Assembly (NCBI GenBank): GCA_019428955.1
Contig: JAHYJF010000003.1
Location: 1-35,983 of the forward strand
Reading direction: 5' to 3'
Length of the DNA: 35,983 nt
Source of the DNA: Burkholderiaceae bacterium
Lineage (GTDB): Bacteria > Pseudomonadota > Gammaproteobacteria > Burkholderiales > Burkholderiaceae_E
The translations under genes were made by a program, and so were the position numbers. Of the stretch, positions 16,065-27,786 are shown piece by piece (position 1 is the first letter of the stretch; the number at the start of each line of letters is the position of its first letter). The notes under the pieces are model-generated. The model did not search any database. It saw only the letters and a program-made list of their open reading frames with translations, and had not been told where the DNA came from.

Positions 16065-18215
16065 TCACCACATCCCGCGCATCGTCGCGGCGACGTCGAG
16101 CGGGGCGCCGGCCGGCGCCCCCAGCTCCCGGTCAGGATCGGTGACGGCCGGTGCGACGGTCTCGAAACAGCCCAGCACTGCCGGGGTGAGGAAGCGGCTG
16201 CGGGCGCCGTGCACGTAGGCGCCCCCCAGGCGCGGCTGGTGGGTGACGTAGTAGCGCAGCGGCTCGATCAGGTGGAGCCGGTCGCGCGCCCGGGTGATCG
16301 CCACGTAGAGCAGGCGGCGCTCCTCCTCGATCGCCGCGGCGTTCCCCGCGGTAAACTCGTTGGGAAAATTGCCGTCGGCGACGTTGAGCACGTAGACCGA
16401 GTCCCACTCCTGCCCCTTGGCCGAGTGCACCGTCGAGAGAATCAGGTAGTCCTCGTCGCGCAGCGGATCGCCGGCGAGATCTCCGCTCGCCTGGGGCGGA
16501 TCCAGCGTCAGCTCGGTGAGGAAACGCTCGCGGCAGGCGAACTCTCCCGAGATGTTGGCCAGCATGTCGAGGTCCGCGGCGCGCACCCCGGCGTCGTCAT
16601 AGCACCGCTCGAGCAGCGGCTGGTACCAGCGCCGGACTTGTGCGACCTGTCCCGGCCAGGGCGTGGCCGGATCGACCAGAACCGTCATCAATCGCGCGAA
16701 ACCCTGCCACTGCTCGCCGTCGGTGGCCGGCGCCGCGAAGCTCGCCAGGGCCGCAAACGTTGCCCTGGGGCGCGGCTCGGCCGCAGCATCCAGCGACGGA
16801 GCGGGCGCGGCAGCAGCGAGATGCTCGAGGCAGCGCTGCGCGCTCCTGGGGCCAACGCCGGCCATCAGCTGCAGGGCACGAAATGCCGCGATGCCGTTCC
16901 TGGGGTTGTCGGCCCAGCGCAGCACGGCGAGCAGATCCTTGACATGGGCGCTCTCGAGAAATTTCAGCCCGCCGTATTTGACGAAGGGAATGTTGGAGCG
17001 CAGCAATTCGACTTCGAGCACGTCGCTGTGGTGGCTACTGCGAAACAGCACCGCCTGGCGGCGCAGCGCGGTCCCGGCCTCGCGCGCCTCGAGCACTTCG
17101 CGGATCACATACTCGGCCTGGGCCCGGTCGTCGAGCACCGTGGCCAGCCGCGGCGACACACCCTTGCCCAGAACCCGCGCGGCGCGCAAAGTCTTGGGGT
17201 ATTGTCGTGAGCCTTCGGCGATCAGCGCGTTGGCGGCATCGAGCACGGCCTGCACCGAGCGGTAGTTCTCCTCAAGGGTCACGCGCCGCGCGGGCGGTGC
17301 GAAGTTCTCCGGGAATGCCAGGATATTGCCGACGTCGGCGGCGCGAAAGCGATAGATCGACTGGGCGTCATCGCCGACCACCGTGACGCCGGCGCCATCG
17401 GGCTTGATCGCCAGCAGGATGCTGGCCTGCAACGCGTTGGTGTCCTGGTACTCGTCGACCAGCACGTGATCGAAACGCGCGCCAATCTCACGGGCCACCG
17501 CCTGGTCCTGCACCCCCGCATGCCACCACAGCAGCAGGTCGTCGTAATCGAGCACGCCGTGCACTTGCTTGCGCTCGACGTAGCCGCGAAACAGCTGCTG
17601 CAGCTGGGCGAGCCACTGGCGGCACCAGGGGTAGTGCTCGTCGAGCACCTGCTCGAGCGGCCAGCCGGTGTTGACCCGGTAGGAATAGATTGCCAGGCAG
17701 GCGTCCTTGCGCGGGAAACGCCGCCGCTCGGAGGAGAAGCCGCAGTCGTGGCGGACCACATCGAGCAGATCGGCGGAATCGCCCCGGTCGAGAATCCCGA
17801 AACCGGGATCGAGTCCGAGGCGCGCGGCGTAATGGCGCAGGAGGCGCGCCCCGATGGCGTGAAAGGTTCCGGCCCAGCGCAGGCGAACCGTGGCGGCGTG
17901 GTTGCCACCGTGGCGCTCAGTCAGCGCCTGGAACACCAGCCGCTCGGCGCGCCTGATCATTTCCTGAGCCGCCCGCCGACTGAAGGTGAGCAGCAGGATC
18001 CGGTCGGGGTCGACTCCCGCCATCACCAGGTGCGCCACCCGGTGTGCCAGCGTCGCGGTCTTGCCGGTTCCGGCGCCCGCGATCACCAGCAGCGGACCGG
18101 CCGCGAAATTGCCCTGGTCATCGACCTCGCCCCAAGTGGCGGCGAGTCGCTGCTGCGGGTTCAGCCGTTCAAGCCAAAGCGGCGTTGTGGCTGGTGATTG
18201 CTTGACTCCTGGCAT
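16065..18215 (-). CDS. UvrD/Rep-family ATP-dependent DNA helicase
   Basis: LNPQQRLAATW, VIAGAGTGKTATLAHRV, LLTFSRRAAQEMIRRAE, VDEYQDTN, VGDDAQSIYRFRAAD, STVHSAKGQEWDSVYVLNVADGNFP, LLYVAITRARDRLHL. Confidence 0.95.
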   Translation of the reverse strand: MPGVKQSPATTPLWLERLNPQQRLAATWGEVDDQGNFAAGPLLVIAGAGTGKTATLAHRVAHLVMAGVDPDRILLLTFSRRAAQEMIRRAERLVFQALTERHGGNHAATVRLRWAGTFHAIGARLLRHYAARLGLDPGFGILDRGDSADLLDVVRHDCGFSSERRRFPRKDACLAIYSYRVNTGWPLEQVLDEHYPWCRQWLAQLQQLFRGYVERKQVHGVLDYDDLLLWWHAGVQDQAVAREIGARFDHVLVDEYQDTNALQASILLAIKPDGAGVTVVGDDAQSIYRFRAADVGNILAFPENFAPPARRVTLEENYRSVQAVLDAANALIAEGSRQYPKTLRAARVLGKGVSPRLATVLDDRAQAEYVIREVLEAREAGTALRRQAVLFRSSHHSDVLEVELLRSNIPFVKYGGLKFLESAHVKDLLAVLRWADNPRNGIAAFRALQLMAGVGPRSAQRCLEHLAAAAPAPSLDAAAEPRPRATFAALASFAAPATDGEQWQGFARLMTVLVDPATPWPGQVAQVRRWYQPLLERCYDDAGVRAADLDMLANISGEFACRERFLTELTLDPPQASGDLAGDPLRDEDYLILSTVHSAKGQEWDSVYVLNVADGNFPNEFTAGNAAAIEEERRLLYVAITRARDRLHLIEPLRYYVTHQPRLGGAYVHGARSRFLTPAVLGCFETVAPAVTDPDRELGAPAGAPLDVAATMRGMW

Positions 18216-19236: not shown

Positions 19237-19552
19237 CTAGCGTTCGCTTACCGGCAGCGGCGCCAGGGGCTTGATCTCTTTTATGCAAATCGTCGAACGC
19301 ACGCCGGCGACGCCGCTGACGTGCAGCAGGCGATCGGTCAGGAAGCTCGACAACTCCTTGAGGTCGCGGGCCACAGCCTTGAGCGGGTAATTGAAATCGC
19401 CCGAGATCGTGTAGCACTCGACGATCTCCGGGAAACTGCGAATCTGGCGCTCCAGTTCGCGCTCGCGCGTGGACTGCTCGCGGTCGACCGACAGGCTCAC
19501 GAACGCCACCACTCCGTAGCCCAGCGCCTGCGGATCGAGCAGCGCGGCATTG
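19237..19552 (-). pseudogene. Lrp/AsnC family regulator, C-terminal ligand-binding domain only (HTH missing)
   Basis: Reverse frame: ALLDPQALGYGVVAFVSLSVDREQSTRERELERQIRSFPEIVECYTISGDFNYPLKAVARDLKELSSFLTDRLLHVSGVAGVRSTICIKEIKPLAPLPVSER; homology ends at the junction near 19545 and no HTH precedes it. Confidence 0.85.
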
Positions 19553-20427
19553 CCGACGGATCGGCCCGCATCGTCGTCGCCGCGGGCAACTTCGCCGGCC
19601 GCACCACCACCATCATCAGCTTCTCGAGCGAAGCGCAATACCGCAGCGGCTTCGGCCCCTGCACGCCAGGGTTCGACACCGTCGCCTAGGGCGATACGGT
19701 GGCGCTCGAGGCGGCCATCCGGCCGGAGACGGCGGCGTTCCTGGTCGAACCGATCCAGGGCGAAGCCGGGATCGTGGTACCCCCCGTCGGCTACCTGCGC
19801 GCGGTGCGCGAAATCTGCTCGCGTCACAACATCCTGATGATCGCCGACGAGGTCCAGACCGGACTGGGGCGCACCGGCAAGCTGCTGGCCTGCGACCATG
19901 AAGCAGTCAAGCCCGACGCCCCGATCCTGGGCAAGGCCCTGGGCGGCGGACTGTTGCCGATCCCGATGTTCCTGGCCCGTGCCGACGTGATGGCGGTGTT
20001 CCAGCCCGGCGACCACGGCAGCACTTTCGGCGGCAACCCGCTGGCCTGCGCGGTGGCGCGCACAGCCCTCGAGATCCTCGAGCGCGACCAGCTCGCGCAA
20101 CGCGCCGAAGAACTGGGTTCCTACCTGCTCGCGCGCCTTGGCGAGCTGCGGCACCCCGCGATCCGTGCGGTGCGCGGCCGCGGCCTGCTGATCGGACTCG
20201 ACCTCTGGCCGCAGTGGGTCAGCGCCCGCAGCTTTTGCGAGGAGCTGATGCGCTGCGGCGTGCTCAGCAAGGAAACTCACCAGAGCGTGGTCCGGCTCGC
20301 GCCCCCGCTGACCATCACCCGTGCGCAGGTCGATCAGGCGCTCGGCGCTATCGAAGCGGTTCTCGACACCATCACGAGTCCCCAGCCAAGCCCCACCCCC
20401 GTGCGCGGTGACGCACTGCCAGCCTGA
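19540..20427 (+). pseudogene. rocD: Ornithine aminotransferase remnant: N-terminus missing, in-frame TAG at 19687-19689
   Basis: GIADGSARIVVAAGNFAGRTTTIISFSSEAQYRSGFGPCTPGFDTVA*GDTVALEAAIRPETAAFLVEPIQGEAGIVVPPVGYLRAVREICSRHNILMIADEVQTGLGRTGKLLA...KALGGGLLP; class-III aminotransferase motifs, reads in frame through TAG. Confidence 0.87.
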
Positions 20428-20443
20428 AACCAAGGAGCAAGTA

Positions 20444-23485: not shown

Positions 23486-26400
23486 CTACATGCTGCGCCG
23501 GTACTGGCCTCCAACTTCGAACAGTGCGCTGGTGATCTGCCCGAGCGAGCAAACCCGCACGGCCTCCATCAGCACCTCGAACACGTTGCGGTTCTCGATC
23601 ACCGCCGTCTGCAGGCGCGCCAGCATCGGACCCGATTCCTTGCTGTGACGCTGCTGAAAATCGCGCAGCCGCTCCAGTTGCGAGGCCTTCTCTTCGTCAG
23701 TGGAGCGCGCCAGCACGATCGTCTGCGAGGTCTGGTCACCATGCGGATTGCGGAAGGTGTTGACACCGATGAGCGGATATTCTCCGGTGTGCTTGAGGGT
23801 CTCGTAGTAGAGGCTTTCGTCCTGGATCCGGCCCCGTTGGTAGCCGGTTTCCATCGCCCCCAGCACCCCGCCACGCTCGGCGATACGTTCGAACTCGGCG
23901 AGCACCGCCGCCTCTACCAGCTCGGTCAGTTCGTCGATGATGAAGCTGCCCTGGTTGGGGTTCTCGTTCTTGGCCAGCCCCCACTCGCGATTGATGATCA
24001 TCTGGATCGCCATGGCGCGGCGCACCGACTCCTCGGTAGGCGTGGTGATCGCCTCGTCATAGGCATTGGTGTGCAGGCTGTTGGCGTTGTCGTAGGTGGC
24101 AATCAGCGCCTGCAGCGTCGTGCGGATGTCGTTGAAATCGACCTCCTGGGCGTGGAGCGAACGACCCGAAGTCTGGCAGTGATACTTGAGCTTCTGGCTG
24201 CGCTCGTTGGCGCCGTACAGTTCCTTCATCGCCACCGCCCAGATCCGCCGCGCGACGCGCCCGATCACCGTGTACTCGGGGTCCATGCCATTGCTGAAGA
24301 AGAAGCTCAGGTTGGGCGCGAAATCGTCGATGTGCAGGCCGCGCGCGAGATACGCCTCGACATAGGTGAAGCCGTTGGCCAGCGTGAACGCCAGCTGGCT
24401 GATCGGATTGGCCCCGGCCTCGGCGATGTGATACCCGGAGATCGACACCGAGTAGAAGTTGCGCACGCCGTGATGGACGAAATATTCGGCGATGTCGCCC
24501 ATGACCTTGAGCGAGAACTCGGTCGAGAAGATGCAGGTGTTCTGGCCCTGGTCTTCCTTGAGGATGTCGGCCTGCACCGTGCCGCGCACCGTGCTCAGCG
24601 TCCATTCGCGAATCTTCTCGTACTCGGTATCGGTGGGCTGGCGCTCGTTGTCGGCGACGAACTTTGCGACCTGCTGGTCGACGGCGGTGTTCATGAACAT
24701 CGCCAGGATGGTCGGAGCCGGACCGTTGATCGTCATCGACACCGAGGTGCTCGGATCACACAGGTCGAAGCCGTCGTAGAGCACCTTGAGGTCATCGAGG
24801 GTGGCGATCGAAACGCCCGAATTGCCGACCTTGCCGTAGATGTCGGGTCGCAGGTCGGGGTCGAAGCCGTAGAGCGTCACCGAGTCGAAGGCGGTCGACA
24901 GCCGCTTGGCCGGCATGCCCTCGGAGAGCAGGTGGAAGCGTCGGTTGGTGCGAAACGCGTCGCCTTCGCCCGCGAACATCCGGGTCGGATCCTCGTTCTC
25001 GCGCTTGAACGCGAACACTCCGGCGGTGTAGGGATAGGAGCCCGGAACGTTCTCGAGCATCAGCCACTTGAGCAGCTCGCCGTGATCCTCATAACGCGGC
25101 AACGCCACCTTGGGAATCCTGGTGCCAGACAGCGAGGTGCTGACCAGCGAAGTGCGAATCTCGCGGTCCCTGATACGCACCACGTACTCGTCGCCTGAGT
25201 AGGCCTTGCGCATGTCGGGCCACATTGAGAGCAGCTTGCGGGCGGCCGGATCGAGCTGGTCCTCGCGCTGCCCCGCCAGCTTCTCGAGTGCCGCGATGCT
25301 ATCGTCCGGCGCTCCCGCCTCAGGGGCACACGCCTCCCGCTCAGCGGCCAGCATCCGCGCGGCCGCGCGCAACTGCTGGACCTCGCGGGCCAGCTGCGCC
25401 TGGGTGCGGGCCTGGTCCTCGTAGTCGCGCAGCGCCGCGGAAATCTCCGCCAGGTAGCGCGCCCGGGCCGAGGGCACGATCGCGTTGGCGGAGCTGGTGT
25501 GGCGCACGCTGACCTTGGCCAGCCGACCCGGCGCGAGGGGGAAGCCGAGCTCGGCCAGGCGCGCGACGATCGCCTGGTAGAGCGCCGTCACGCCGTCGTC
25601 CTGGAAACGCGACGCCTGGGTACCGAAGACCGGCATCTGTTCGGCCGGCACCCCGAACGCCTCGCGATTGCGCTGCACCTGCTTGGCGACGTCGCGCAAG
25701 GCGTCCGCCGAACCCTTGCGATCGAACTTGTTGATCGCCACGAAATCGGCGAAGTCGAGCATGTCGATCTTCTCGAGCTGGCTGGCGGCGCCGAACTCGG
25801 GCGTCATCACATACAGCGAGGCCGACACCAGCGGCGCGATCGCCGCATTGCCCTGGCCGATGCCCGAGGTTTCGACGATGATCAGGTCAAAGCCCGCGAC
25901 CTTGCACGCCGCGATCGCATCGGGCAGCGCGCCACTGATTTCGCTGCCCGCTTCGCGGGTGGCCAGCGAACGCATGAACACGCGCGCTCCGCCATCACCC
26001 CACGGCCCGATCGCATTCATGCGGATGCGGTCGCCGAGCAGCGCGCCGCCGGACTTGCGCCGCGACGGATCGATCGAGATCACCGCCACCCGCAAGGCGT
26101 CGCCCTGGTCGAGCCGCAGGCGGCGGATCAATTCGTCGGTCAGCGACGACTTGCCCGCGCCACCGGTACCGGTTACCCCCAGCGTCGGCACCTTGCAGTC
26201 GGCCGCCGCGGGCTGCAACTGCGAGCGCAACTTGTCCAGACCCTTGCTGCCGGCACCGTTGTCGAGCACGGTGATCAGCCGCGCCAGCGCCCGCCAGGAT
26301 TTCTCATCGTGGCCGCCAAGCGCCGCGAGGTCGGTGCTCGCGCCCTTGGTCAGGTCGACGTCGGAGAGCTGGACCATCTCGCCGACCATTCCCTGCAAGC

Positions 26401-26812
26401 CCATGCGCTGGCCATCCTCGGGCGAGTAGATGCGGGTGACGCCGTAGCCCTCCAGATCACGGATCTCATCGGCGACGATCACGCCGCCACCGCCGCCGAA
26501 AATCCGGATGTCGGCGCCGCCGCGGCTGCGCAGCAGATCGATCATGTAGTGGAAGAACTCGACGTGGCCGCCCTGATAGGAGCTGATCGCGATGCCCTGG
26601 ACATCTTCCTGCAGGGCGGCGCTGACGATCTCTTCGACCGAACGGTTGTGGCCGAGATGGATTACCTCGACGCCCATCGACTGCAGGATCCGGCGCATGA
26701 TGTTGATCGAGGCATCGTGGCCGTCGAACAACGATGCGGCGGTTACAAAGCGCACCTTGTGGATAGGGCGATAGGTGGCCAGTTTTCTGGCCTCACTTTG
26801 ATCGTTCATCAT
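23486..26812 (-). CDS. icmF: Fused isobutyryl-CoA mutase (B12-binding domain + G-protein chaperone + mutase large subunit)
   Basis: 1108 aa; [28 protein letters not shown]12-binding motif, [19 protein letters not shown] MeaB-like P-loop, [34 protein letters not shown] and [36 protein letters not shown] mutase motifs. Confidence 0.95.
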
Positions 26813-26855
26813 TGGTTCCCTTCGAGGCGCCTTGATATTATCCGGAAAAGGTAAA

Positions 26856-26875
26856 TGACGTTTACGTAAACGTCA
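26856..26875. promoter_or_regulatory. Perfect 20-bp palindrome TGACGTTTACGTAAACGTCA, candidate operator
   Basis: Self-complementary across all 20 bp; in the intergenic region between divergent icmF (start 26812) and enoyl-CoA hydratase (start 26932). Confidence 0.75.
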
Positions 26876-26931
26876 GCTAGATCAGTCCCACAGACCGCAT
26901 CCGTTCCGACCAGTCAGGAGGCTGGCCAGCC

Positions 26932-27786
26932 ATGTCACCAACCATCGCCCAAGCGATTGCAGACCATGAAGGTGCCCCGCTCGCGCGCCGTGAGGCCGAC
27001 TGGCTGGAGGTGACGCTGAACCGTCCGGCCCAGCACAACCGCATCGACCCCGCCGACATTGACGCGCTGCTGGCGCTGCTCGAGCCCCTGCGCGCCGACC
27101 CGGGAACGACCCGGGGGTTGCTGATCACCGGAGCGGGCGAGCGCAGCTTCAGTTCCGGCTACACGCTCCAGGCGATCGAGACCCGGCTCGACGACCGCCT
27201 CGAGCAGCTCTTCGACACCCTTGAGACCCTGCCATTCGTGACCATCGCCGCACTCAACGGCAGCATCACCGGTGGCGCGACCGACCTGGCGCTGTGCTGC
27301 GACATCCGGATCGGCGTCCCCGGAATCCGGATGTACGTGCCGGCAGCACGCCTCGGGATTCACTACTACTCCGGCGGACTGCGCCGCTACGTCACCCGCC
27401 TCGGACTGTCGGCAACCAGCCGGCTGATGCTCGCCGGGGTGAATATCGACACCGAGGAGATGCTGCGCATCGGCTTTCTCTCGGAAATCATCCCGCGCAG
27501 CGCGCTCGACAAGAGAATCGCGGAGTTGCGCGCAACCATCGCCCAAACCGAACCGGGCGCGGTGGCCGACATGAAACGCCATCTGCTGGCGCTCGCCGCG
27601 GGCGGCAGCAGCGACGAGCGGGTCGCGCTCGAAAGATCGATGTCCGCTGCCCACCAGGCAAGCCTGCGGACCCCGGCCCTGCAGGAGCGGCTCGCGGCGC
27701 TGCTCGGGCGCCCATCGGCCAAGCGCGGCGAAGCTTCCGCAGAGCCGGGTCCGGACCCTCAGGAGGCGACGCGCCGGAACCGGTAG
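26932..27786 (+). CDS. Enoyl-CoA hydratase/isomerase (crotonase) superfamily protein
   Basis: LEVTLNRPAQHNRIDPADID, GERSFSSGYTL, IAALNGSITGGATDLALCCDIRIGV. Confidence 0.88.
   Translation: MSPTIAQAIADHEGAPLARREADWLEVTLNRPAQHNRIDPADIDALLALLEPLRADPGTTRGLLITGAGERSFSSGYTLQAIETRLDDRLEQLFDTLETLPFVTIAALNGSITGGATDLALCCDIRIGVPGIRMYVPAARLGIHYYSGGLRRYVTRLGLSATSRLMLAGVNIDTEEMLRIGFLSEIIPRSALDKRIAELRATIAQTEPGAVADMKRHLLALAAGGSSDERVALERSMSAAHQASLRTPALQERLAALLGRPSAKRGEASAEPGPDPQEATRRNR

Follow-up and report, generated by a model that had tools for sequence, protein, structure and literature searches.

The window analysed here, a stretch of 35,983 nucleotides from a Burkholderiaceae bacterium, contains the 20-bp sequence TGACGTTTACGTAAACGTCA, and direct reading confirmed the claim of the initial annotation that this sequence is perfectly self-complementary. 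The palindrome holds three ACGT units (26858-26861, 26864-26867 and 26870-26873) and lies between the minus-strand icmF gene, whose start codon is at 26812, and a divergent plus-strand crotonase ORF. The features of the locus are as follows.

23486..26812, minus strand: icmF, fused isobutyryl-CoA mutase/GTPase (NF045497), most likely the gene controlled by the operator
26848..26853, minus strand: putative icmF -10 hexamer TACCTT, with a 17-bp spacer, at the conserved TAnnnT position (46 icmF sites)
26855..26870, minus strand: second overlapping 16-bp LiuR box (predicted, icmF-proximal) TTTACGTAAACGTCAT, one mismatch to TTKACGTNNACGTMAA
26856..26875, no strand: predicted three-unit LiuR operator TGACGTTTACGTAAACGTCA, based on direct reading, a further copy in the genome at liuR and its retention upstream of icmF together with LiuR
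26861..26876, minus strand: first overlapping 16-bp LiuR box (predicted, icmF-distal) CTGACGTTTACGTAAA, one mismatch to TTKACGTNNACGTMAA
26871..26876, minus strand: putative icmF -35 hexamer CTGACG, supplied by the outer operator unit and reading TTGACG in sister species, from the alignment of 48 icmF sites and a genus alignment
26932..27786, plus strand: divergent ORF of the enoyl-CoA hydratase/isomerase family (PF00378); control by the operator is possible but unsupported

Two perfect 20-bp palindromes are present in the whole window, TGACGTTTACGTAAACGTCA and another at 16102-16121. First-order Markov simulations of the window gave a mean of 0.16 such palindromes and at least one in 14 of 100 runs, and a perfect 20-mer is by itself only mildly surprising here. 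With two found against 0.16 expected, the palindrome alone proves little, and its recurrence is the informative part. The palindrome at 16102-16121 (GGGGCGCCGGCCGGCGCCCC) consists entirely of G and C, lies within a UvrD-like helicase ORF and probably arose by chance. No other match to TGACGTTTACGTAAACGTCA with up to three mismatches was found in the window (none expected from 100 shuffles). The expectation of 0.16 shows that such palindromes are not extremely rare in this GC-rich window, which would suit a chance origin or a non-regulatory structure such as an RNA hairpin or terminator. However, this explanation is exceedingly improbable, as the site has been conserved despite diverged flanks and a variable position relative to icmF (about -37 to -236), tracks a regulator gene, and is retained in variants that break the perfect hairpin, e.g. 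TGACGTTGACGTAAACGTCA.

A genome-wide scan (3.72 Mb, 509 contigs), as had been suggested with the initial annotation, revealed one further exact copy of TGACGTTTACGTAAACGTCA at C34:16513-16532, at a MerR-family gene that heads an acyl-CoA operon. Each of three congeneric genomes carries exactly two exact copies. Two weaker matches were judged to be chance: one at G000:C20:9719 (three mismatches), whose surroundings look coding with no acyl-CoA context seen, and one at C454:2855 (one mismatch to the 16-bp box), which is inside a 663-aa ORF. The copy on C34 overlaps, through its first TGA, the stop codon of the MerR-family gene.

G000:C34:16126-16515: LiuR candidate gene, 129 aa (PF13411 and PF09278)

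This gene is followed by genes for a 4HBT thioesterase, an acyl-CoA dehydrogenase, aceK, a PRK06954-type thiolase and a second acyl-CoA dehydrogenase. In the sister genome G002 the same stretch runs on into carboxyl transferase, enoyl-CoA hydratase and HMG-CoA lyase genes, forming a liu cluster; the G000 contig stops short of these three genes. The promoter of the C34 gene contains TTGACGTAAACGTAAA. The encoded protein is 45% identical to a MerR protein on a Marinobacter plasmid, whose gene is followed by liuABCDE in the order isovaleryl-CoA dehydrogenase, carboxyl transferase, enoyl-CoA hydratase, carboxylase alpha subunit and HMG-CoA lyase. TTTACGTTTACGTAAA lies directly upstream at this Marinobacter locus, and TTTACGTTAACGTAAA precedes the Vibrio homologue of the MerR gene. 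The minimal 16-bp LiuR box is TTKACGTNNACGTMAA, and the window site comprises two boxes like those at the Marinobacter and Vibrio liuR genes, each with one edge mismatch. On the strength of synteny, the related liuRABCDE locus and the matching 16-bp sites, the C34 protein was taken as LiuR. The genome would thus encode a MerR-family LiuR orthologue, with the MerR protein of the Marinobacter liuABCDE locus as the reference, in a gene that adjoins liu genes (the acyl-CoA dehydrogenases and thiolase in G000, the further genes in G002). A PDB search returned distant MerR-family structures only. The position of LiuR on another contig is consistent with the earlier remark that the window has no regulator gene of the MerR/TetR kind proposed.

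The aceK gene (G000:C34:18220-19998, L004) within the LiuR-headed acyl-CoA operon is an observation in its own right, and at least 11 further liuR loci (including L115, L116, L117, L094, L127, L124, L122 and L121) also have aceK close to liuR. LiuR of Shewanella is reported to control aceBA (PMC3223726). The presence of aceK in the LiuR operon would tie LiuR to the glyoxylate-shunt switch.

Comparisons across genomes showed that the presence of the site depends on LiuR. Among 61 relatives of the same order, with the palindrome scored at up to three mismatches, palindrome and LiuR are both present in 22 and both absent in 36, leaving three discordant genomes (1 + 2; p = 3e-13, this and the following p-values being guides only, because related genomes are not independent though counted so). 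The site lies upstream of icmF in 15 of the 16 LiuR-containing relatives with an icmF 5' region available, against 0 of 13 LiuR-lacking relatives that keep icmF (p = 2e-7). In a named collection the site occurs at 40 of 75 icmF loci, mostly from Burkholderiales with some gammaproteobacterial records; a search of 50 named icmF genomes located LiuR in all 24 with the site and in 14 of 26 without it (p = 1e-4). Culturable betaproteobacteria such as Hydrogenophaga and Massilia also carry it. In a class-wide sample of 94 genomes, LiuR is present in 9 of the 10 that have a three-unit site and in 2 of the 84 that lack one (p = 5e-10). The link between site, icmF and LiuR is not universal, as the 14 site-less named genomes with LiuR indicate, and G058 has both LiuR and icmF with no site upstream of icmF. 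Of the sampled genomes, only G157 (C91:23020, C146:29547) has three-unit sites while giving no match to LiuR at 1e-15.

The second copy at liuR, the synteny and the co-occurrence thus support, through comparative genomics, the earlier suggestion of a LiuR-like site for a MerR-family protein. This suggestion also survived a search for copies near acyl-CoA genes and for conservation upstream of icmF; both are present, and a TGACGTTTACGTAAACGTCA-type site is kept upstream of icmF across orders. The palindrome next to icmF is very probably a LiuR operator. That another regulator is the true ligand, with LiuR merely co-occurring, is very unlikely. Acyl-CoA genes in proteobacteria are also under other regulators (PMC5343134), and candidates would be TetR-type proteins (FadR, PsrA, FadP or LiuQ) or an Lrp/AsnC-type protein of the window. 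However, the promoter and operon of the regulator gene itself contain a minimal box and the second exact copy, as in autoregulated LiuR loci, and the presence of the site tracks LiuR over three genome samples (co-occurrence was examined for LiuR alone). The Lrp-like domain in the window is the C-terminal part of the minus-strand ORF at 19237-20433, which matches Lrp/AsnC-type regulators.

The assignment to LiuR stands, but the palindrome does not represent the minimal box, as the three ACGT units, spaced 6 bp apart, form two 16-bp boxes that overlap with an offset of 6 bp and have the middle unit in common. Three units are present in 35 of 40 named icmF sites and in 28 of 29 sites after liuR, whereas the promoter of liuR itself shows them in only 4 of 36 cases (p = 1e-11 and 5e-13, respectively; 8 of 53 liuR loci could not be parsed and were left out of the liuR-site count). 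The sites were called mainly with the two-unit consensus, so that three units were not strongly favoured. In three-unit sites the linker hardly varies at the bases that overlapping boxes require, with T as the first linker base in 47 of 48 three-unit sites vs. 22 of 32 two-unit sites. By these site classes, three-unit sites mark target promoters, and the promoter of liuR usually has two units.

Alignment of 48 three-unit icmF sites showed a second conserved block, TA...T, 17 bp after TTGACG and on the icmF side only. The TAnnnT motif occurs at this 17-bp spacer in 23 of 46 icmF sites, that is, in only half of those aligned; at the other offsets tested and on the mirror side it never exceeds 3 of 46. 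TTGACG within the outer unit and TA...T 17 bp further on indicate that the outer unit doubles as the -35 element and that the operator fills the spacer. The hexamers CTGACG and TACCTT of the window itself are weak promoter matches; from them, icmF transcription is predicted to begin about 7 bp beyond TACCTT. In many species the promoter of liuR instead has a TAnaaT-like element, judged by eye, on the upstream side of the box. Both the icmF and the liuR layouts would suit the blocking of polymerase. The site and its conservation, the joint occurrence of site and LiuR, the division into site classes and the geometry of the promoter can all be read from the sequences.

The palindrome is thus best described as a doubled LiuR operator laid over the icmF promoter, from which LiuR most likely represses icmF until branched-chain acyl-CoA builds up. 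We infer LiuR binding, repression, the inducer and the choice between one and two dimers from sequence comparisons. LiuR, a MerR-family regulator of leucine, isoleucine and valine catabolism encoded outside the window, would bind the icmF operator in its inducer-free form and block RNA polymerase, with the outer unit acting as the -35 hexamer, the remaining operator filling the 17-bp spacer and the -10 element following directly. Accumulating branched-chain acyl-CoA intermediates would release LiuR, and IcmF would be made along with the liu enzymes. IcmF interconverts isobutyryl-CoA and butyryl-CoA, and thus fits valine breakdown.

Activation from a long spacer of 19-20 bp is common among MerR-family proteins. 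At the same site, LiuR could therefore be a DNA-distorting activator in the MerR style, or both activator and repressor, at icmF, considering that it belongs to the MerR family and that the icmF promoter, like classical MerR promoters, has the operator between -35 and -10. However, the conserved TAnnnT gives a spacer of 17 bp, a normal sigma-70 length, the -10-like element that often lies upstream of the box at liuR fits a roadblock, and LiuR has been described as a repressor in Shewanella (PMC3223726) and in Pseudomonas (PMC8871633). Activation at icmF is unlikely compared with repression.

Repression by LiuR may also be graded. Tentatively, LiuR would use two operator grammars, a two-unit form at its own gene and, at its targets, a three-unit form fused with the -35 element and the spacer. 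The latter form might be bound by two dimers on opposite faces or by one dimer in two registers, giving a steeper or stronger target response. We know of no QacR-like paired dimers on opposite faces in the MerR family. The split between two-unit and three-unit sites gives a specific, testable prediction on how LiuR grades its own expression and that of its targets.

The initial annotation placed the palindrome in a promoter region common to icmF and the crotonase. The icmF side of this proposal holds, whereas the crotonase as a demonstrated co-target is unsupported. Control of both genes would be favoured by the symmetry of the operator, its spacing of 44 bp to icmF and 57 bp to the start of the crotonase, and the crotonase neighbour being kept in three of the four congeneric genomes. 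However, the crotonase side lacks a conserved -10 element, and in the congener G003 both the site and the sequence towards icmF are retained, although the crotonase has been lost and the divergent neighbour is a different one. A crotonase gene lies near icmF in few other genomes, and one of these, G026, has neither the site nor LiuR. Dual control is thus doubtful, and icmF is the preferred target; a bystander effect on the crotonase may occur in the window species.

The wider regulon foreseen in the initial annotation was borne out by boxes at liuR, its operon, icmF and further acyl-CoA genes in relatives. The genomes, namely that of the window and 13 relatives, have 1-5 exact boxes each vs. 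0-1 for controls, and the exact boxes examined adjoin liuR, the following operon, icmF and genes for MCC-beta, acyl-CoA dehydrogenase, EtfB, thiolase and an SDR protein. These neighbours form the branched-chain and acyl-CoA catabolic regulon expected of LiuR. In distant relatives (L099, L120, L261, L102, L103 and L104), LiuR-type boxes lie by MCC-beta, acyl-CoA dehydrogenase, EtfB, thiolase and SDR genes. In many Burkholderiales and some other proteobacteria, the operator would place the B12-dependent IcmF under the regulator of branched-chain amino acid breakdown, indicating valine/isobutyryl-CoA metabolism as the physiological setting of IcmF in bacteria with LiuR sites. The literature searched, which did not extend to the RegPrecise LiuR matrices, yielded no LiuR consensus and no LiuR-icmF link; the one paper mentioning both LiuR and isobutyryl-CoA mutase states that R. 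rubrum probably lacks the latter. Published LiuR matrices may already contain icmF as a target, the three-unit form, or both.

The system closely resembles the LiuR regulon, or 'ILV box', of proteobacteria, with a MerR-family regulator beside the liu cluster, a TTKACGTNNACGTMAA-type box at liuR and its targets, and branched-chain amino acid/acyl-CoA genes as targets. It differs in the probable target icmF, which did not appear in the literature searched, and in three overlapping units fused with the -35 element and the spacer. Like the spacer operators of MerR, CueR and CadR, the icmF site lies between -35 and -10 and would serve a dimeric winged-helix regulator of the same family, but it has a 17-bp rather than a 19-20-bp spacer, three ACGT units, and catabolic instead of metal control. 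The two overlapping dyads offset by ~6 bp resemble QacR-type operators of the TetR family, which can bind two dimers on different faces; the protein family is a different one, and for the LiuR site two-dimer binding is hypothetical. Apart from tying icmF to the LiuR pathway in many bacteria, the operator is a known type of switch.
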